Assembly (NCBI RefSeq): GCF_006974145.1
Contig: NZ_CP039456.1
Location: 2,014,001 to 2,078,000 of the forward strand
DNA length: 64,000 nucleotides
Reading direction: 5' to 3'
DNA from: Changchengzhania lutea
Lineage (GTDB): Bacteria; Bacteroidota; Bacteroidia; Flavobacteriales; Flavobacteriaceae
Shown here one piece after another: positions 22,875 to 32,106 of the stretch (position 1 is its first letter; every line of letters begins with the position of its first letter). Below the pieces are notes generated by a model. That model did not search any database and had not been told where the DNA came from. It saw only the letters and a list, made by a program, of their open reading frames with translations. Position numbers and translations under genes: made by a program.

Positions 22875-22951
22875 TAACATTAAGGTAACCTTTTAATCAC
22901 GGTTGTTTAATATTTAGGTAACCTTCTGGTTATAATTAAGATTTTTATTTG
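22875..22951 (+). promoter_or_regulatory. Pho-box-like array and promoter of the small receptor-domain gene
   Basis: Six half-sites start exactly 11 bp apart: TAAC 22875, TAAC 22886, TCAC 22897, TAAT 22908, TAAC 22919, TTAT 22930. A -7 element TTTATTTG ends at 22951. Half-sites lie at -21, -32 and -43 from its final G. Eleven-bp direct repeats are typical of PhoB/OmpR-type response regulators; assignment to PhoB rests on the phosphate genes nearby. Confidence 0.75.
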
Positions 22952-23425: not shown

Positions 23426-23555
23426 ATGCAACAACCATTCCTAGATACTGAATAATTAAGCGAATGCTTTTTCATTTTCATTACTACAGCGCTAAAAAGA
23501 TTCCTTTTCAATGGTGCTCCAATGTTAATTAATTGTAATCACCTCACATTTCAAG

Positions 23556-23643
23556 CAACGTTAAGGTAACCTTTAGCTAACGCTTTTATTACGGTTCGTT
23601 AATCTTAACATAACACCTTATTTCCAAAGTGATGGTTTCTTTG
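23556..23643 (+). promoter_or_regulatory. Pho-box-like array and promoter of the 23656 receptor
   Basis: Half-sites at 11-bp steps: CAAC 23556, TAAC 23567, TAAC 23578, TTAC 23589, TAAT 23600, TAAC 23611. A -7 element TTTCTTTG ends at 23643. The last good half-site is 32 bp before that G, in phase with the other arrays, although the -21 site (23622) is weak. The rest of 23426-23555 holds nothing I recognise. Confidence 0.72.
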
Positions 23644-23655
23644 CCATAGGAAATT

Positions 23656-26511
23656 ATGAGAAAATCGATGAAGAAATTTATACTATTATTTATACTGTTA
23701 GCAACTACTGTTACTTACGCTCAGAACAGGGATTCTATAATAGGACAGTTAACAGATAAAGAATATAACAACGAACCATTAGCCTTTGCGAACGTATTGG
23801 TAAAAGGGACGACTACAGGAACAACATCTGATATTGATGGTTTTTATAGATTTGATAATCTAGAACCCGGAAATGTGATTCTGAGTTTTAGTTTTGTGGG
23901 CTATGAAACACAGGAAATACCTGTTCAAGTTATAGCAGGAAAAGAAACAGAGCTTAATGTTATTATGAATGCCAGTGCTGCCTCATTGGATGAAGTCGTC
24001 ATTACAACAACCACCAAAAGAGAAAGTGAAACAGCTTTATTACTAGAACAGAAAAAAGCAGTTGAGATCAAACAAAGTATAGGTGCCGAAGAATTATCTA
24101 GAAAAGGCATTAGTGATGCCGCAGGCGCTGTTGCAAAAATTTCGGGGGTTTCAAAACAGGAAGGATCAAGCAACGTCTATGTTCGAGGTTTGGGCGATCG
24201 GTATCTAAATACAACCATGAATGGTTTATCCTTACCTTCAAACGATGTCAATAAGAAAAATATTGATTTGGATTTATTTGCCTCTGATGTTATTGAGAAT
24301 GTCTCCATTAGTAAAGCATATGCATCTAGATTTTATGGTGATTTTGCTGCGGGCAATGTCGATATTTCTTCTAAGGATTATAATGGTAATGGTTTTCTTG
24401 ATGTTTCTGTTGGCTCTGAGATTAACACCAACGCCATTGGCAAAGATTTTGTTAGAAGCGAAGGCACAGGATACTTCGGCTTCTATAATAGATATGCCCA
24501 TAATCCTTTCGCGGTAATATTGTCTCATGGGTTTGACCCTGTTGATGTAGGCACGCCTATAAACACAAGTTTTGGTGGTGCTTTTGGGAAATCTTTTCAT
24601 TTCGAAAATGGGTCCAAATTAAGTTTTTATGCTACGGGAGCTTTCGGAAATGATTTTCAATACAGAAAAGGGTCAAATGTAGATTATACCAATGTTGAGA
24701 AAAAAGCTTTTGAAGAAGCTGAAGAGTTTGAATATGGCACGACCACAACTGCTATGGCGTCCATCAATTATAAAATAGATAACTCCAATACTATTAAATT
24801 CAATTCTTTATTCGTGAATAGTTCTTCCGATAAAATTGGATATTTCGGTATAGATGGCAAAGGAAGAAATAGAGATGCTATTTTAAATACGGATGAAGGT
24901 TTTTATCAGCAAAACATTCAATTCAACCAGAATCTTATTTATGTCAACCAACTTATGGGCACCCATAAATTTGAAAAACTAGAAGTTGAATGGGGCGTTG
25001 GTCACAACTTTGTGAATGCACATGAACCTGACAGAAAGCGATTAAGTTTTGAAAATTACCAATTTGCATTGGATAATGACCCTAACACCAATCCTGTATT
25101 TTATAGTAATGTCGATTTTGATAACCAACGTTACTTTCAGAATATACAAGATGAAGAGTTAAATGGCCGCTTAAACTTAGCTTACCACCCTTCAGAAACC
25201 ATAAAGGTGAATGTAGGCTACAATGGCCGTAATAAAGAACGTAGATTTGACAATATTAGATACGGTTATGACATTGTTGATAATAGCGGCGTTACTAATG
25301 TGAACACGCTTGATAATATCTTCACTTTAGAAAACCTAAACCTTACTAGCAATGAAGGTGTTTATGAAATAAAAGTCATTAAACCTACACCAACCTTAAG
25401 CAACACGAACAGACCCGGTGTACCAGAAAACACATATAATGGCACATTAGATATATATGCTGGCTATCTAAATGCTGAAATTACAGTGGCCGATAAATGG
25501 CTTTTTGTACCAGGACTTAGAGTAGAGTCTTTTGACCAATATATTGAGTACGACGTCATTAATTTAGGGGTTAATGGTAAAAACAATGTAAGTGCATCAG
25601 CCGTGGTTTACTTACCTAGTTTAAGTGTTAAATATGCTTTGAATGATGATCAAAATCTGCGTTTTTCAGCCAGTAAAACAATCTCTCTACCAGAATTTAA
25701 AGAAGTGGCACCTTTTGTTTACGAAAGCGTGTCGCAACGTATTGGCGGGAATCCAGATTTATTAGGGCAGAAACAAGGCTTTAACTATACCAATGTAAAA
25801 GATGTGTCCTATTCTAAAATTCTAAATCTCGATTTAAAATATGAATGGTTTGTAACCAAATCTGAAATCATTTCCTTAGGAGCATTCTACAAACAGATTG
25901 AAGACCCTGTTAACCAAGTAGTCGCTTTTGATGCCACAGGAACACAACGGTTTTTCAGAACAGGAGAAAAGGCACAGATTCTTGGTGTAGAAGCAGAAAT
26001 ACGTAAAAATATCATTACGAATGAAAATAATGATGCAGAACTTTCAGTTGGACTGAACGCTACATACATGCATACAGAGCAAGATTTGTATTCAGATATC
26101 GTAGGGAGCAATTTTAATGTGAGTTTTGTAGAAGATAAGCAAGAACTGCAAGGCGCTTCTCCTTTTATAATGAATGCAGATATTAACTATTCGCCAAAAT
26201 CATTTCAAAATTATGAGCCAATTGCCACATTAGCATTCTCTTATTTTTCCGATAGAATTGATGCTTTAGGTTCGGGTCAATTAGGCAACGTAATTGAAAA
26301 GGGTATTCCAACATTAGATTTTATTCTTAAAAACAAAATAGGTGCGTATTTCGAAATTAATCTATCCGCAAAAAATATTTTAGATCCAACAATCAAATTT
26401 GTTAGGAACACCACAGAAGGTAAAATTGTTGTGACCTCTCCTAACGGAAAAGATGTTTCAAATTACAAAAAAGGAATGAATCTAGGATTACAACTAAAAT
26501 ACAGTTTTTAA
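23656..26511 (+). CDS. TonB-dependent receptor, probably phosphate-regulated
   Basis: 951 residues. Signal peptide about 1-23, carboxypeptidase-regulatory-like domain about 27-110, plug about 115-250 (SNVYVRGLGDRYLNTTMNGL), then a barrel ending LGLQLKYSF. It differs from the other three receptors: it lacks their LRGLGPDQ ... LINGKRR plug and belongs to another subfamily. It is followed 48 bp later by a beta-helix lipoprotein, most likely its surface partner. The promoter carries the 11-bp half-site array. The location next to phosphate porin and PiT genes suggests uptake of a phosphorus compound, not proven. The ATG at 23668 is an alternative start. Confidence 0.9.
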   Translation: MRKSMKKFILLFILLATTVTYAQNRDSIIGQLTDKEYNNEPLAFANVLVKGTTTGTTSDIDGFYRFDNLEPGNVILSFSFVGYETQEIPVQVIAGKETELNVIMNASAASLDEVVITTTTKRESETALLLEQKKAVEIKQSIGAEELSRKGISDAAGAVAKISGVSKQEGSSNVYVRGLGDRYLNTTMNGLSLPSNDVNKKNIDLDLFASDVIENVSISKAYASRFYGDFAAGNVDISSKDYNGNGFLDVSVGSEINTNAIGKDFVRSEGTGYFGFYNRYAHNPFAVILSHGFDPVDVGTPINTSFGGAFGKSFHFENGSKLSFYATGAFGNDFQYRKGSNVDYTNVEKKAFEEAEEFEYGTTTTAMASINYKIDNSNTIKFNSLFVNSSSDKIGYFGIDGKGRNRDAILNTDEGFYQQNIQFNQNLIYVNQLMGTHKFEKLEVEWGVGHNFVNAHEPDRKRLSFENYQFALDNDPNTNPVFYSNVDFDNQRYFQNIQDEELNGRLNLAYHPSETIKVNVGYNGRNKERRFDNIRYGYDIVDNSGVTNVNTLDNIFTLENLNLTSNEGVYEIKVIKPTPTLSNTNRPGVPENTYNGTLDIYAGYLNAEITVADKWLFVPGLRVESFDQYIEYDVINLGVNGKNNVSASAVVYLPSLSVKYALNDDQNLRFSASKTISLPEFKEVAPFVYESVSQRIGGNPDLLGQKQGFNYTNVKDVSYSKILNLDLKYEWFVTKSEIISLGAFYKQIEDPVNQVVAFDATGTQRFFRTGEKAQILGVEAEIRKNIITNENNDAELSVGLNATYMHTEQDLYSDIVGSNFNVSFVEDKQELQGASPFIMNADINYSPKSFQNYEPIATLAFSYFSDRIDALGSGQLGNVIEKGIPTLDFILKNKIGAYFEINLSAKNILDPTIKFVRNTTEGKIVVTSPNGKDVSNYKKGMNLGLQLKYSF

Positions 26512-26559: not shown

Positions 26560-27762
26560 ATGAAAAATAATTTATTATTAGGATTAGCAATTACAATATT
26601 GCTTTTTAACTCCTGCGCTTCAGATGATACTGCCGATATCTATATCACAGATAACAGCGTTATTAACAACAACGGTGGCGGTGGTAGTACTGATGAAGAC
26701 ATTCCAATTAGTGCAGCAGAATACGCTTCAGATTTAGTTCTAGATGCCAATAAAACCTACACCATAAGTGGCCCGGTAATTATGGCCGATGGTGCCAATT
26801 TAATTATTGGTGAAGGGGTTACCATTAAAGCGGTTACCACTGGAGCCGACGTATATATTGCTATCTCTCAAGGTGCTAGAATTATTGCCAATGGTACTGC
26901 TACCAACCCAATTGTGATGACTTCTGGATCTGCAAATCCATCAGCTGGTGACTGGGGCGGTTTAATAATTTTAGGAAAAGCCCCAATTAACTCAGTAACT
27001 GGTAGTGCAACCTCGACTTCTGAAATTGGTAGCTTGCCTTACGGCGGAACTGAAACCGCAGACAGCTCAGGAATTATTCGTTACGTACGCGTAGAGTATT
27101 CTGGAGGTGCTGCAGATGGATCTTCAGAAAATAACGGATTTTCATTTTACGGTGTAGGTGCAGGTACGACGGTAGACTATATTCAAGCTTATGAAGGTGC
27201 AGACGATGGGATCGAGTTTTTTGGTGGTAGCGTCGCGGTAAATCATGCTGTGGTAATTAATTGTCAAGATGATTCCATTGATTGGACTGAAGGCTTTTCA
27301 GGCTCGGTTACCAATGCCTATGTAAAACATGGTGCAGATCATGATAAAGGGTTTGAGTGTGATGGATATAATACAGATATTGGAAATTTATCCAGTCCTA
27401 AATTTTGGTCTAAACCTACGGTGAAAGATGTTACTATTATTGGTTTAGGTTCAGGAACTGGTAGCGAAGCTATTAGATTAAGAGCAGGCACTCAAGGATT
27501 GTTTGATAATATTTTAATTGAAGGTTTTGAAGAAGGCTTTGATCTTGATGGTGATGCTGGAGCAGGTAGCGATAACCCAACAGGAACCGGTGTTTTAAAT
27601 GGAGATTTGGATGTCACCAACGTCACGTTTACCGATGTTACCACAAAATTTAAAAATGATACCGGAGAAACTTTTGTAGAAGTAGATTTTATTGCCGGAA
27701 TTGGTCTTGGCACAGGGACAGACTATGCCACTTGGGGAGCAAGCTGGACCGTAGGAAACTAA
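26560..27762 (+). CDS. Outer-membrane lipoprotein with predicted beta-helix fold
   Basis: 400 residues. Signal peptide with lipobox LLFNSCAS (lipidated Cys near residue 19) and a Gly/Asn-rich linker (NNNGGGGSTDED). A repetitive beta-rich body follows (ADGANLIIGEGVTIKAV, GDWGGLIILGKAPIN, YIQAYEGADDGIEFFGGSV, NCQDDSIDWTEGFSG), typical of right-handed parallel beta-helix proteins. It lies 48 bp after the receptor without an intervening terminator, so they form an operon. A substrate-capturing partner of the receptor is the most likely role. No catalytic motif is obvious. Confidence 0.82.
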   Translation: MKNNLLLGLAITILLFNSCASDDTADIYITDNSVINNNGGGGSTDEDIPISAAEYASDLVLDANKTYTISGPVIMADGANLIIGEGVTIKAVTTGADVYIAISQGARIIANGTATNPIVMTSGSANPSAGDWGGLIILGKAPINSVTGSATSTSEIGSLPYGGTETADSSGIIRYVRVEYSGGAADGSSENNGFSFYGVGAGTTVDYIQAYEGADDGIEFFGGSVAVNHAVVINCQDDSIDWTEGFSGSVTNAYVKHGADHDKGFECDGYNTDIGNLSSPKFWSKPTVKDVTIIGLGSGTGSEAIRLRAGTQGLFDNILIEGFEEGFDLDGDAGAGSDNPTGTGVLNGDLDVTNVTFTDVTTKFKNDTGETFVEVDFIAGIGLGTGTDYATWGASWTVGN

Positions 27763-27831: not shown

Positions 27832-28146
27832 TTATAGTGAAGCTACATGCTTTGTGTAATCAACTTCTTTTAAAGCTCCATCTATTAAATAAATCCACTT
27901 GCCGACTTTTTTTCCATTATCATAATTTGCAGAAACGATTTTTTCACCTTCTGTATTAAAGCTTAACCACGCACCCTGTAATTTACCATCTACCGTGTAA
28001 GACCCTGTTTGGCTTACAACACCATTGTCATGATAATAAACAACATCAATTAAGTTTGTGTCTTTATTAAGTTTTAAATCTCTCTTTTGTTGAGCAAAAG
28101 AGACCACAGTAATTAAAAAGGCAAAAAGTAAAAATAACTTCTTCAT
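27832..28146 (-). CDS. Small secreted MORN/YwqK-like repeat protein
   Basis: 104 residues. Signal peptide about 1-18, then MORN-like repeats (VVYYHDNGVVSQTGSYTVDG, GAWLSFNTEGEKIVSANYDNG, VGKWIYLIDGALKEVDY). Such repeats occur in proteins often labelled antitoxin YwqK, without a proven function here. It lies inside the phosphate block on the opposite strand. An array of 11-bp half-sites is found 44-80 bp upstream of its start. Confidence 0.8.
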   Translation of the reverse strand: MKKLFLLFAFLITVVSFAQQKRDLKLNKDTNLIDVVYYHDNGVVSQTGSYTVDGKLQGAWLSFNTEGEKIVSANYDNGKKVGKWIYLIDGALKEVDYTKHVASL

Positions 28147-28189: not shown

Positions 28190-28226
28190 TAACATTAAAG
28201 CAACTATTACGTAACACTAAATTAAC
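28190..28226. promoter_or_regulatory. Array of four 11-bp half-sites between divergent genes
   Basis: TAAC 28190, CAAC 28201, TAAC 28212, TAAC 28223, all plus-strand sense. The nearest plus-strand TTTG ends at 28242, 19 bp after the last half-site, so it is out of phase with the other promoters. The array may instead act on the minus-strand gene at 27832. Confidence 0.6.
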
Positions 28227-28297
28227 ATTAAATTGATATTTGTCTGATTTTCAATATTTTGATATAAAAATATAACATGGCATTATTAATAAATAAT

Positions 28298-28341
28298 TAA
28301 TATTAAGATGACATTCAGATGACCTTAAATCTTGATATTTG
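28298..28341 (+). promoter_or_regulatory. Orphan Pho-box-like promoter
   Basis: TAAT 28298, TGAC 28309, TGAC 28320, then a -7 element GATATTTG ending at 28341. Spacings to the final G are 43, 32 and 21 bp, exactly as before the PiT gene, whose -7 element is also GATATTTGC. No protein gene follows before the terminator at 28421. Confidence 0.72.
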
Positions 28342-28347
28342 CTTTGT

Positions 28348-28450
28348 CTTAAGACAAAACAATTAGTATTTCATATAATCTATTAGTTTTTGTCGACTAC
28401 ATTATCATGATTTCTAATGGGACTGCCTTAGGCCAAGGCAGTCTTTTTTT
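28348..28450 (+). ncRNA. Candidate phosphate-regulated small RNA
   Basis: About 100 nt from a predicted start about 7 nt after the -7 element to a strong intrinsic terminator. A 5' region can pair GACAAAA (near 28352) with TTTTGTC (near 28388-28394). The only ATG frame is 16 codons at 28407 and runs into the terminator. It lies between the array at 28190 and the next Pho-like promoter at 28462, so it is a separate unit from the porin gene. Predicted from promoter and terminator only; the target is unknown. Confidence 0.55.
28421..28450 (+). terminator. Terminator of the candidate small RNA
   Basis: Stem GACTGCCTT / AAGGCAGTC around loop AGGCC (28421-28443), followed by seven T. It precedes the porin gene by about 75 bp and terminates nothing annotated except the candidate RNA. 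Confidence 0.9.
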
Positions 28451-28461
28451 GTTTTAATATT

Positions 28462-28505
28462 TAACAATTAGGAAACATTCGGTTAACATTTCTGTTAGTT
28501 CTTTG
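28462..28505 (+). promoter_or_regulatory. Pho-box-like promoter of the porin gene
   Basis: TAAC 28462, AAAC 28473, TAAC 28484, followed by TTTG 28502-28505. Spacings to the G are 43, 32 and 21 bp. The TTG at 28503, which opens the longer frame, is part of this -7 element and so cannot be the start codon. Confidence 0.75.
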
Positions 28506-28523
28506 CATCGACAAAAACTAATA

Positions 28524-29732
28524 ATGAAAATGAGACTTAAACTTTCATTGGTACTTGCCCTGAGTACTTTACTTACTATTCATGCACAAGAAATCAGTGA
28601 CACTTCATTTGGAAAAGGCTTGATTAATTTTGTAGCCAAAGACAGTTCATTCAGTATAAAATTTGCACCCCGTTTTCAAGTACGCTCTATTTCATCTTGG
28701 GATCATAATGACAGTTCATATGAAAGTCCTGAACACAACTTTATTGTAAGACGGGCACGCTTAAAATTTGACGGCTTTGCATACAGTCCTAAATTGAGAT
28801 ACAAATTAGAATTAGGCTTATCCAATAGGGATATTTCTGGTGCCAACCAATTTAACCGTAATGCGCCAAGGTATATCTTGGATGCGGTTATTATGTGGAA
28901 TTTCGCCAAGAATTTTGAACTGTGGGCAGGTCAGACAAAATTACCAGGTAATGTGGAGCGTGTCGTATCTTCTGCAAACCTGCAATTAATAGATCGCTCC
29001 CTATTAAATAGTGGCTTTAATATTGATCGTGACCTTGGTATACAGTTACGTCATAAAACAAAAATAAGTGGTAACTTTTTAATGCGAGAAAAAATTGCCA
29101 TTTCTCAAGGTGAGGGCCGCAATGTTACCGAAGGTAATGAAGGTGGTTTACAATATACAGCCCGTTTGGAATTTCTACCTTTTGGAACATTCCAATCAAA
29201 AGGGGATTATAGTCAATCGGATTTAAAAAGAGAAGCGACCCCAAAGTTAATGTTAGGATTTACTTATGATTTGAATGAAGATGCTGTTAAAGAACGTAGT
29301 GTTTTAGGCGATTATATGTTTAAAAGTGATGGTTCACTATACCAAACTGATATTACCACCATATTCGCAGACGCCATGTTTAAGTACAATGGGTTTTCTT
29401 TTATGGGCGAATACGCGAAACGAACTGCAGACAACCCAATAGCTACAGATGTTGATGGTGTTACCCCTACTGATGATATTGTTTTAATAGGAAGCGCCTT
29501 AAACCTACAGGCTGGATATTTATTTCCAAGTAATTATGAAATTGCAGGCCGTTTTACTACCGTAGACTATGAAACAGTTACGAATACATTGCCTTCAAAA
29601 CAATATACCTTAGGTGCTTCAAAATACATCGTCGGGCATAAACTGAAAGTACAAAGCGACCTGAGTTATACAACATTAGATGGTAATGAAGACAATATCA
29701 CATTTAGACTTGGTTTTGATATTCATTTTTAA
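28524..29732 (+). CDS. Phosphate-selective porin (OprO/OprP family)
   Basis: 402 residues from ATG 28524 (MKMRLKLSLVLAL); MRLKL at 28530 is also possible. Signal peptide about 1-22 ending IHAQ. The beta-barrel sequence has the family hallmarks FIVRRARLKFDGFAYSPKLR and WAGQTKLPGNVERV, and it ends FRLGFDIHF with the terminal aromatic. It should form an anion-selective trimeric channel for phosphate across the outer membrane. It sits directly before a PiT transporter, and both promoters carry in-phase 11-bp half-sites. Confidence 0.9.
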   Translation: MKMRLKLSLVLALSTLLTIHAQEISDTSFGKGLINFVAKDSSFSIKFAPRFQVRSISSWDHNDSSYESPEHNFIVRRARLKFDGFAYSPKLRYKLELGLSNRDISGANQFNRNAPRYILDAVIMWNFAKNFELWAGQTKLPGNVERVVSSANLQLIDRSLLNSGFNIDRDLGIQLRHKTKISGNFLMREKIAISQGEGRNVTEGNEGGLQYTARLEFLPFGTFQSKGDYSQSDLKREATPKLMLGFTYDLNEDAVKERSVLGDYMFKSDGSLYQTDITTIFADAMFKYNGFSFMGEYAKRTADNPIATDVDGVTPTDDIVLIGSALNLQAGYLFPSNYEIAGRFTTVDYETVTNTLPSKQYTLGASKYIVGHKLKVQSDLSYTTLDGNEDNITFRLGFDIHF

Positions 29733-29741
29733 TTTAAAAAA

Positions 29742-29785
29742 TAACAATTCGGTAACACGTTAATTATAAAAACTCATGATATTTG
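29742..29785 (+). promoter_or_regulatory. Pho-box-like promoter of the PiT gene
   Basis: TAAC 29742, TAAC 29753, TTAT 29764, then GATATTTG ending 29785. Spacings are 43, 32 and 21 bp. The transcript should start near 29792, which places the ATG at 29776 upstream of the RNA and supports the start at 29809. Confidence 0.75.
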
Positions 29786-29808
29786 CAAACATTTTACAAT
29801 TAAACCCT

Positions 29809-32106
29809 ATGGATAATATTTACTTATTTATGTTGATTGCCATTACAATTCTAGCAGTTGTAGATATTGTAGTTGGCGTTAGCAATGATGCTATTAATTT
29901 TTTGAACTCTGCGATTGGTTCTAAGGTGATTTCTTTAAGAACCATTATGATTGTTGCGAGTATAGGAATATTCATAGGAGCAGTGTTTTCAAGCGGAATG
30001 ATGGAAGTGGCTAGAAAAGGAATATTTATGCCTGCTCAATTTGAGTTTTCTGAAATTATGCTCATTTTCATGGCTGTAATGATAACAGACATCTTATTAT
30101 TAGATTTTTTCAACACACTTGGCCTTCCAACATCTACTACGGTTTCTATAGTATTCAACTTATTGGGTGCAGCTGTAGTCATGTCTTTAATCAAAATAAG
30201 CGCCTCAGAGACTGAAACATTTGCCGAATTAGGAAACTACATAAATACAGAAACAGCACTAACCATTATCAGTGGCATATTGCTATCTGTCTTAATTGCG
30301 TTTACCGTTGGTGCATTTGTACAATGGGTATCACGTCTTCTTTTTACATTCAACTACGAAAAACGTATTAAGAGCTTTGGAACAATTTTTGGAGGTGTTG
30401 CCTTAACAGCTATTACCTATTTTATTTTCTTAAAGGGATTAAAAGGAACACCTTACTATAATGAACTTAAAGGTTTATTAGAAGGTAACGAAATCTTTAT
30501 TATACTTGGAAGTTTTGTTTTCTGGACATTGTTCTCTTATTTATTCGAGTTAATCACTAAGAAATCAGTATTACTTTTTGTTATCGGGGTTGGAACTTTT
30601 GGATTAGCATTAGCTTTCTCTGGAAACGACTTAGTTAACTTTATAGGTGTACCTATGGCTGCGTATCATTCATATGAAGCGTATATTGCTGGAGGCATGG
30701 ATGCTACAATGTCTATGGCCGTATTACAAAAAAAAGTCCCCGCAGAACCATTATTATTATTCATCGCTGGAGGTATCATGGTTTTAACTTTATGGTTTTC
30801 AAAAAAAGCTAAATCTGTTGCAGAAACAGAGATTAGTTTATCTAGACAAGGTGAAACACATGAAAAATTTGAGCCAAACAGACTCTCTAGAAGTGTTGTT
30901 AAAGGGACAACTCAACTTTCCAGTTACTTTAGCGTAATAATACCTCAATCTGTGCAAGACAGTATTAGCAAAAGTTTTAACAAGCCAGAAATCTTATTGT
31001 CAAAAGACCAAAGTATTGATGCACCTGCATTCGACATGATTCGAGCCTCGGTTAACCTAATGGTCGCTGGCGTATTAATAGCCATTGCTACATCAATGAA
31101 ATTACCTTTATCTACTACTTATGTTACTTTCATGGTGGCCATGGGAACATCTTTAGCAGATCGAGCTTGGGGAAGAGAAAGTGCTGTGTATCGCGTAGCC
31201 GGAGTATTAAACGTTATTGGAGGGTGGTTTGGAACCGCTATTGGAGCCTTTGTAGCATCTGGGATTGTGGTGTTTTTGATTAACTGGAATCCAAAAGTTA
31301 TGACGCCAATATTGTTGCTTTTAACCGTTATATTATTATACAGAAATTACAAATCCCATAAGAATAAATCGAACAAAACTTTAGAAGAAGATAGCTTAAT
31401 TAAAGCCGAAAGCAGTTCTGTACAAGGTGTTATTCATGAAAGCGCCGCCAATATTGCCAACGTTGTTAAACGTGGAAACAAAATTTACACGAACGCCATT
31501 AATGGTCTCGCTAAACAAGATTTAGACCTACTTAAGAAAAATAAAAAACAAATTATCAAACTCTCACAAGAAGTTGAAGGTTTGCGTGATAATATATTCT
31601 ATTTTATTAAAAATTTAGATGAATCTAGTGTTGGTGCAAGTAATTTCTATATTAATATTTTAGGATATTTACAGGATATGACACAGTCTTTAGAGTACAT
31701 TTCTAAGGTGAGCCATAAGCATGTAAACAATAATCATAAGAAATTAAAATTTAGTCAAATTAAAGAATTAAAAGAAATTGATGAGTCTCTTGATAAATTG
31801 TTTAACGATACTAAAGATGCTTTTAGTTCACGCTCCTTTGAACAAATAGGAAATATTTTAAATAGTAAAGAAGAAGTTTTTAAAATTCTTTCTGAAAAAA
31901 TTCAAAAGCAAGTTGAACGGACACGCTCGGAAGAATCTAGTCCAAAAAATACCACTTTGTATTTTGGAATACTATTAGAAACTAAAGACTTATTGAAAGG
32001 CACAATGAATCTTCTTGAAGAATATCATGATGCTCATGATGCCAACGTACCAATAGCAACCATACCTGTTGTAGATGCGGTTGTTGAAAAGGATAATATT
32101 CTATAA
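29809..32106 (+). CDS. PiT-family inorganic phosphate transporter fused to a PhoU-like domain
   Basis: 765 residues from ATG 29809 (MDNIYLFMLIAIT). The PiT membrane domain has two family repeats (GVSNDAINFLNSAIGSK with FFNTLGLPTSTTVSIVFNLL, and later MKLPLSTTYVTFMVAMGTSL). It is interrupted by a central segment and followed at about 545-765 by a helical PhoU/DUF47-like region (NANVVKRGNK-type helices; LYFGILLETKDLLKGTMNLL). It moves phosphate across the inner membrane with a cation. The appended PhoU-like part may sense or gate transport. It forms a pair with the porin upstream and ends at a terminator. Confidence 0.92.
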   Translation: MDNIYLFMLIAITILAVVDIVVGVSNDAINFLNSAIGSKVISLRTIMIVASIGIFIGAVFSSGMMEVARKGIFMPAQFEFSEIMLIFMAVMITDILLLDFFNTLGLPTSTTVSIVFNLLGAAVVMSLIKISASETETFAELGNYINTETALTIISGILLSVLIAFTVGAFVQWVSRLLFTFNYEKRIKSFGTIFGGVALTAITYFIFLKGLKGTPYYNELKGLLEGNEIFIILGSFVFWTLFSYLFELITKKSVLLFVIGVGTFGLALAFSGNDLVNFIGVPMAAYHSYEAYIAGGMDATMSMAVLQKKVPAEPLLLFIAGGIMVLTLWFSKKAKSVAETEISLSRQGETHEKFEPNRLSRSVVKGTTQLSSYFSVIIPQSVQDSISKSFNKPEILLSKDQSIDAPAFDMIRASVNLMVAGVLIAIATSMKLPLSTTYVTFMVAMGTSLADRAWGRESAVYRVAGVLNVIGGWFGTAIGAFVASGIVVFLINWNPKVMTPILLLLTVILLYRNYKSHKNKSNKTLEEDSLIKAESSSVQGVIHESAANIANVVKRGNKIYTNAINGLAKQDLDLLKKNKKQIIKLSQEVEGLRDNIFYFIKNLDESSVGASNFYINILGYLQDMTQSLEYISKVSHKHVNNNHKKLKFSQIKELKEIDESLDKLFNDTKDAFSSRSFEQIGNILNSKEEVFKILSEKIQKQVERTRSEESSPKNTTLYFGILLETKDLLKGTMNLLEEYHDAHDANVPIATIPVVDAVVEKDNIL

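Follow-up and report, generated by a model that had tools for sequence, protein, structure and literature searches.

An RNA gene of about 105 nt that lies 5' of the phosphate porin gene in many marine flavobacteria very probably encodes a real regulatory RNA, one that tunes the amount of porin. We describe it from a window of 64,000 nucleotides, bases 2014001-2078000 of the single-contig, 4.13-Mb genome of Changchengzhania lutea, and all coordinates below are those of the window. A small RNA gene at 28346-28450, which a sequence-only reading of the same DNA had predicted, is strongly supported because the RNA is conserved in 206 of 397 genomes of the family, its terminator is kept by compensatory base pairs, and it covaries with its target. 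We think it likely that the product is a trans-acting sRNA of the phosphate regulon that blocks translation of the porin mRNA, a reading built on sequence evidence: a conserved RNA, its pairing, compensatory evolution, and persistence of the pairing when the two genes lie apart. The complementarity of the RNA body to the porin 5' end, the target, and the mechanism formed no part of the sequence-only reading and are added here.

An sRNA gene with its own promoter and terminator

The promoter of the sRNA carries tandem 11-bp half-sites, TAATATT, TGACATT, and TGACCTT (28298-28324, plus strand), a motif common to porin promoters, followed by the -7 element TGATATTTGC (28333-28342, plus strand). 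The -7 consensus of Bacteroidota is TAnnTTTG. Counted from the G of TTTG at 28341, the half-sites TAAT, TGAC, and TGAC fall at -43, -32, and -21, exactly where they had been placed before. The promoter of the downstream PiT gene (29742-29786, plus strand) had been given the same geometry, and this stands in part: its -7 element at 29777-29786 is identical to that of the sRNA, and two half-sites of the TAAC kind sit at the same offsets, but the third (TTAT) is weak.

Past the sRNA promoter the DNA is free of protein genes, as had been claimed, with no ORF of 60 aa or more within 28298-28450. The predicted fold of the 110-nt body reaches -28.0 kcal/mol, compared with -16.0 ± 2.8 in shuffles (z -4.3), and this score together with the covariance models R1 and R2 described below places the sRNA gene at 28346-28450 on the plus strand. 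Its transcript would start a few nucleotides past the -7 element and end at the T run. A 5' hairpin, UUUGUC-UUAA-GACAAA (28343-28358, plus strand), is predicted by folding, the first bases of which may precede the transcript start, and GUCUUAAGAC from this hairpin is found again in many homologues, not in all. Then come the pairing region UAUUAGUUUUUGUCGA (28381-28396, plus strand; core 28386-28394), in which UUUUGUC is predicted to be about 90% unpaired in an apical loop, and an intrinsic terminator (28419-28450, plus strand), whose hairpin of 11 pairs at 28419-28445 and T run bear out the strong terminator proposed earlier. Terminator-like sites in the surrounding 10-kb region number 11, against 5.3 ± 2.1 in shuffles. 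The porin does have a promoter of its own downstream, again as proposed, which sequence and motif scan place at 28474-28506 on the plus strand (tandem box AACATTCGGTTAACATT, 28474-28490; TTCTTTGC, 28499-28506).

The left-hand neighbour of the sRNA region is a 104-aa ORF on the minus strand (27832-28146). To the right, both on the plus strand and both identified by Pfam, are the phosphate-selective porin (Porin_O_P, PF07396; 28524-29732), whose nearest counterparts in named records come from Flavobacteriaceae such as Winogradskyella, Psychroserpens, Olleya, and Lacinutrix, and a PiT-type phosphate transporter (PHO4, PF01384; 29809-32106). The start of the PiT gene was chosen from the ORF list and is likely the ATG at 29809, the next in frame, since the listed ORF start (29776) precedes the end of the -7 element; its leader, inspected by eye, contains no sRNA target site.

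Several further boxes occur in the window. At 28213-28229, between the 104-aa ORF and the sRNA, there is another tandem box (AACACTAAATTAACATT) and then TGATATTTG; by eye the box is seen again in several relatives and the same-strand -7 element does not recur. A AACATTAAGGTAACCTT box stands at 22876-22892, 5' of a 128-aa ORF, and repeats like it occupy 23540-23625, 5' of a TonB receptor (23656-26511). This receptor and a 400-aa protein (26560-27762) have a gene order resembling the phosphate-induced receptor-lipoprotein pair of F. johnsoniae.

A conserved RNA family in Flavobacteriaceae

When 60 relatives were searched, giving 30 porin loci with our own included, the core was upstream of the porin in 19. 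All 19 of these have GACAAAAA in the porin leader, and among the other 11 a degraded form is present in locus L007 only. The first covariance model, R1, was built from these 19 homologues, and the 206 family genomes that it matches (E ≤ 0.01) include 182 of the 330 of good quality. Our own genome has a single R1 match, to which a wider model, R2, adds two weak ones (E 0.018 and 0.047). Run unfiltered on 27 loci thought to be free of the RNA, R1 gave weak matches only, the best at E 0.0027 (L023). A search of 296 genomes of the order gave 12 with a match at E ≤ 1e-4, of which 8 belong to the family; of the 4 outside it two were inspected, L382, a real copy with the altered core in a 64% complete bin, and L384, which lacks the core and has a terminator-like hairpin. 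Rfam 15 yields no match at the gathering score over the whole window, and for 28200-28560 three matches at chance level (E 1-4.8).

A lack of conservation among close relatives that share this gene order had been named as a refutation of the small RNA; the check was run, and the RNA is conserved there. In these close relatives conservation extends past the core to much of the body; among homologues at large indels in the body are frequent, and no ORF is conserved. A wider alignment of 80 copies has an invariant GUUUU-N-GUC, and 8 of its 12 consensus pairs have pair-keeping changes on both sides, all within the terminator stem.

The sRNA core is complementary to the start of the porin mRNA

Read in reverse complement, the core GUUUUUGUC (28386-28394) gives GACAAAAAC, a word found at 28510-28518, where the mRNA of the neighbouring porin gene begins. 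In the window the complementarity extends to 16 consecutive pairs, 28381-28396 with 28508-28523, and reaches the last base before the start codon, so that the target site in the porin 5' leader is TCGACAAAAACTAATA (28508-28523, plus strand), the first one or two bases of which may precede the transcript start. Binding to the leader is predicted at -28.7 kcal/mol, compared with -15.0 ± 2.8 in 1000 shuffled leaders (best -26.1). By raw duplex energy over the 41 ORF starts of the window the porin ranks second (-28.7) and the TonB receptor first (-31.3). The receptor appears to pair with the terminator stem, and we judged this unlikely because that stem is itself paired.

Complementarity to the translation start region of the porin is conserved. 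We scanned 147 loci for sRNA-leader pairs; model matches were taken from those listed, down to near E 1e-7, with G126 (at a contig end) left out. Two had no core and 10 no accepted site (4 with a variant porin leader, 6 with no porin in the DNA examined), leaving 135 pairs, some of which share one genome (e.g., L111 and L112). Within these pairs, drawn from the matches listed, 116 are GUUUUUGUC/GACAAAAAC, 11 have a G-U at the last position, 6 have one extra A, and 2 are GUUUUAGUC/GACUAAAAU. The site begins 4 nt past the TTTG-like element in 111 pairs, 5 nt in 23, and 6 nt in 1, and its GAC lies a median of 21 nt from the start codon (5-95% 17-25, range 14-72; n = 129 measured). Conservation of the core and the spacing is partly by construction, since the search pattern accepted a GACAAAA-like core only if it followed a TTTG-like word at no more than 12 nt; the flanks are free of this. 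A conserved UUUCA may pair with the start codon or equally be part of a stem. At L111 (G163) a second unit of sRNA and porin leader is followed by a truncated porin reading frame.

We propose that the sRNA, transcribed with a promoter and a terminator to itself, would hold UUUUGUC in an apical loop and bind through its pairing region to the porin mRNA over its first 12-16 nt. The porin leader is predicted to be only about 20-30 nt long. Because the duplex would extend to or near the start codon, ribosome loading would be stopped and less porin would be made. Repression is the most likely outcome, the direction following from the position of the site. The same sRNA and the same pairing might instead activate or protect the porin mRNA, the 5' end being capped against decay in a coherent loop. 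A site 4-6 nt past the TTTG-like element in all 135 pairs, that is, at the extreme 5' end of the mRNA, would suit such protection, and a box common to both promoters would suit a cooperating pair. We regard protection as unlikely, however, because a duplex this close to the start codon occupies the usual place to block initiation, and because GibS of Bacteroides pairs at the start and its deletion raises the neighbouring operon (PMC7366714).

Co-occurrence and separation of the RNA and the porin

Across the 397 genomes, with cut-offs of E ≤ 1e-5 for the RNA and E ≤ 1e-100 for the porin, both are present in 154, the RNA only in 12, the porin only in 47, and neither in 184 (Fisher p 1.6e-51, relatedness ignored). 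In at least 7 of the 12 RNA-only genomes the site does follow downstream, ahead of a porin-like gene that is either more divergent or a different one (L047, L062, L072, L118, L138, L152, L155). Inspection of 26 of the 47 porin-only genomes found that in 4 the porin does have an RNA beside it, divergent in sequence and matched by the leader; the other 22 porin genes have no adjacent RNA, and 18 of them lack both the core and an intact site (a few are degraded), the remaining 4, with G124 among them, keeping the site. Three more porin-only loci, L007, L019, and L023, have no core, with a degraded site in L007. A named set of 80 loci, partly overlapping with the family genomes and so not independent of them, gave 79 that could be assessed: core and site occur together in 69, the core alone in 1 (with a degraded leader match), the site alone in 5, and neither in 4. 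One of the site-only loci, L334, has a core 3.2 kb upstream, and L296, L316, L318, and L328 have the site alone. Genomes G360 and G418 likewise have the leader site and no RNA match at E ≤ 0.05, and G314 (84% complete) has the site and weak RNA matches only, the better one without the core.

The opposite arrangement is found in G144, G130, and G014, which keep the RNA with an intact core and have no exact TTTG-plus-site leader anywhere in the genome, so another target may exist; at these loci (L044, L083, L136) the PiT gene directly follows the sRNA and no porin adjoins. A genuine sRNA that binds the porin leader might still act mainly on other mRNAs, in which case the leader would be a minor target or a sponge. 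This explanation overlaps with the one we prefer, and the conservation of much of the body beyond the core in close relatives would also fit it. We nevertheless hold it improbable, given that GACAAAAACTAA is not enriched in our own genome (10 sites vs. 7 for the reversed control), that the one other promoter-like match, considered as a second target near 609 kb, is coding in three genomes, and that the porin genes without adjacent RNA mostly (18 of 22) lack an intact site as well.

It is very improbable that the complementary segments belong to one cis-acting leader, produced by read-through from upstream and folding around the terminator to control the porin. In the 135 pairs both segments are on the same strand at a distance of 108-213 nt and could fold together, but a promoter-like element belonging to the porin itself immediately precedes the site and a strong terminator stands in between. 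In G101, G124, G324, and G381 the RNA is found 2.8-3.1 kb upstream of the porin with the pairing kept, which points to a separate RNA and not a leader; within the 1.5 kb that adjoin the RNA most of the longer ORFs run on the opposite strand, with a same-strand frame of 132 codons in G381 as well. In addition, three genomes keep the RNA without an adjoining porin.

Compensatory changes in the two partners

The flanks of the core vary together in sRNA and leader, with paired variants such as AAAG/CUUU, CUUUG/CAAAG, UCAG/CUGA, and UUACAG/CUGUAA. Over 71 distinct pairs, 229 of 284 flank cells are Watson-Crick, a count reached by none of 5000 shuffles of partners (mean 200.3, max 216). In 18 rows the sRNA flank is unusual, and there duplex energy averages -25.3 with the cognate leader and -17.1 with non-cognate ones, and 0 of 5000 permutations are as low; depending on the number of positions, between 0 and 2 of 5000 shuffles did as well as the observed subsets of unusual flanks. 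On a porin tree of 127 tips, where the counts come from parsimony on a fast tree and are rough, some changes perhaps being reversals, flank positions 1-4 have 30 sRNA changes and 61 leader changes. Twelve of these coincide on the same branch, vs. 2.0 expected if independent, and 10 are fully compensatory; position 5 adds 5 more same-branch changes (1.55 expected), 2 of them compensatory. The core has itself changed with its partner in two genomes of one genus, G173 and G355, and in the 64% complete G654, which is assigned to another family; in all three GUUUUAGUC faces the leader GACUAAAAU before a different porin-like gene.

At L211 (G145:C107) the porin-side sRNA copy is apparently part-overwritten by an inverted porin promoter and leader, and an intact sRNA lies on another contig. 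Such apparent conversion of the local copy by the leader means that some of the paired changes could have arisen through template switching at inverted repeats. An explanation without any RNA pairing would make the two copies half-sites to which a protein binds in the DNA, or inverted repeats that template switching keeps similar. It could draw on this gene-conversion-like leader copy in G145 but is scarcely credible, since the terminator is conserved by compensatory changes that DNA sites would not need, the single-base changes seen in the leader core still allow G-U pairing where the sRNA core has stayed the same (11 pairs, GACAAAAAU; by eye also in L050, L080, L113, and L134), and bulged and distant pairings persist.

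A tandem box shared with the porin promoter

A pair motif trained on porin promoters (TTAACATT pairs) fits best at spacing 11 upstream of the RNA, with a mean of 5.33 over 134 regions; it scores -0.73 at spacing 12 and -2.6 to -3.5 at the rest of 8 to 14, and shuffled upstream regions score -5.70 at spacing 11. Above the 95th percentile of their own shuffles are 72% of the 134 regions, and the box of our own genome, at 4.3, is near the mean. Porin boxes average 19.5 vs. 5.3 for sRNA boxes, a comparison that favours the porin because the matrix was trained on porin promoters. A genome-wide scan for the box found no enrichment (28 sites vs. 29 in the control). Because the tandem box of the sRNA resembles that of the porin promoter, one tandem-repeat-binding regulator is probably common to both, and a PhoB-like regulator acting on the 11-bp repeats probably controls sRNA and porin together.

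Phosphate starvation is the signal that we infer for the sRNA, from the Porin_O_P, PHO4, and Na/Pi genes (Porin_O_P, PHO4, and Na_Pi_cotrans by Pfam around the locus), from the 11-bp direct-repeat box at its promoter, a feature of Pho regulons, and from a PhoB/PhoR-like pair. The PhoB-like regulator of our own genome is the best of 31 at 217.6 bits, under the 296.2 cut-off, and by eye a PhoR-like kinase gene comes right after it. By analogy with other bacteria, we take tandem 11-bp repeats to be PhoB sites in Flavobacteriaceae. PstS-type PF12849 has no match in our own genome (13 of 14 control genomes were positive), which makes its promoter unusable as that of an independent Pho gene, and the PiT and Na/Pi transporters may thus be the main phosphate importers.

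In F. johnsoniae a TonB receptor, a secreted lipoprotein, and an OprP-family porin (pf07396) adjoin phoBR, and the receptor and lipoprotein rise strongly at low phosphate (PMC8115612). The OprP row in that paper reads -1.3 with 0.245, which, taken as fold change and p, means that the porin is not induced (PMC8115612). Such non-induction would fit a brake on the porin, should that species carry the sRNA, and is only suggestive.

If sRNA and porin share an activator, then a simultaneous brake on the porin seems wasteful unless thresholds or timing differ. One tentative possibility is a family-wide incoherent feed-forward loop that works as a band-pass switch, with a PhoB-like regulator acting on a near-consensus porin box and a weaker sRNA box. 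Mild phosphate limitation would then open the porin, and severe starvation would add the sRNA, shutting the porin as high-affinity scavenging takes over.

Relation to known sRNAs and significance

The enterobacterial sRNAs MicF, MicC, OmrA/OmrB, and RybB act in trans, pair with the 5' region of porin or outer-membrane mRNAs to block translation, and use Hfq. The sRNA proposed here differs from the MicF class in that its gene adjoins the target and shares its promoter box, and in that Hfq (PF17209) has no match at E ≤ 0.001 in our own complete genome (5 of 14 control genomes were positive). GibS of Bacteroides thetaiotaomicron is an intergenic sRNA of about 145 nt that pairs around start codons, its deletion raises the adjacent operon, and there is no obvious Hfq or ProQ homologue (PMC7366714). 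The porin sRNA is like it in being an intergenic RNA of Bacteroidota with an adjacent operon, pairing at the start codon, and no obvious Hfq. N-acetylglucosamine is the signal for GibS, whose seed is open at the 5' end and whose targets are metabolic, whereas the porin sRNA would have an internal apical-loop seed and a phosphate porin as target and forms a family in Flavobacteriaceae. Rfp18 of Flavobacterium psychrophilum, one of a set numbered Rfp1-89, shares with it a flavobacterial origin and a strong predicted fold; the effects reported for Rfp18 concern metalloproteases, and the word porin is absent from the main text (PMC9723704).

A search of the open-access literature and Rfam 15, with most subscription papers, preprints, and supplements outside its scope, found no prior report of the RNA. 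We take it to be a new family within a known class of RNA, its comparison with GibS for homology being through Rfam, should GibS be included there.

To our knowledge, few Bacteroidota sRNAs have a target supported by evolution. Here an sRNA is known together with its target, its pairing site, its seed loop, and many natural compensatory variants, and it spans roughly half of the sampled family, whose members are common in the sea. It offers a test of how an sRNA acts without Hfq and of why a phosphate porin would be held back within its own regulon. If the band-pass switch is true, the family would possess an incoherent feed-forward loop that works without Hfq, with promoter and pairing site fused at the first nucleotides of the mRNA.
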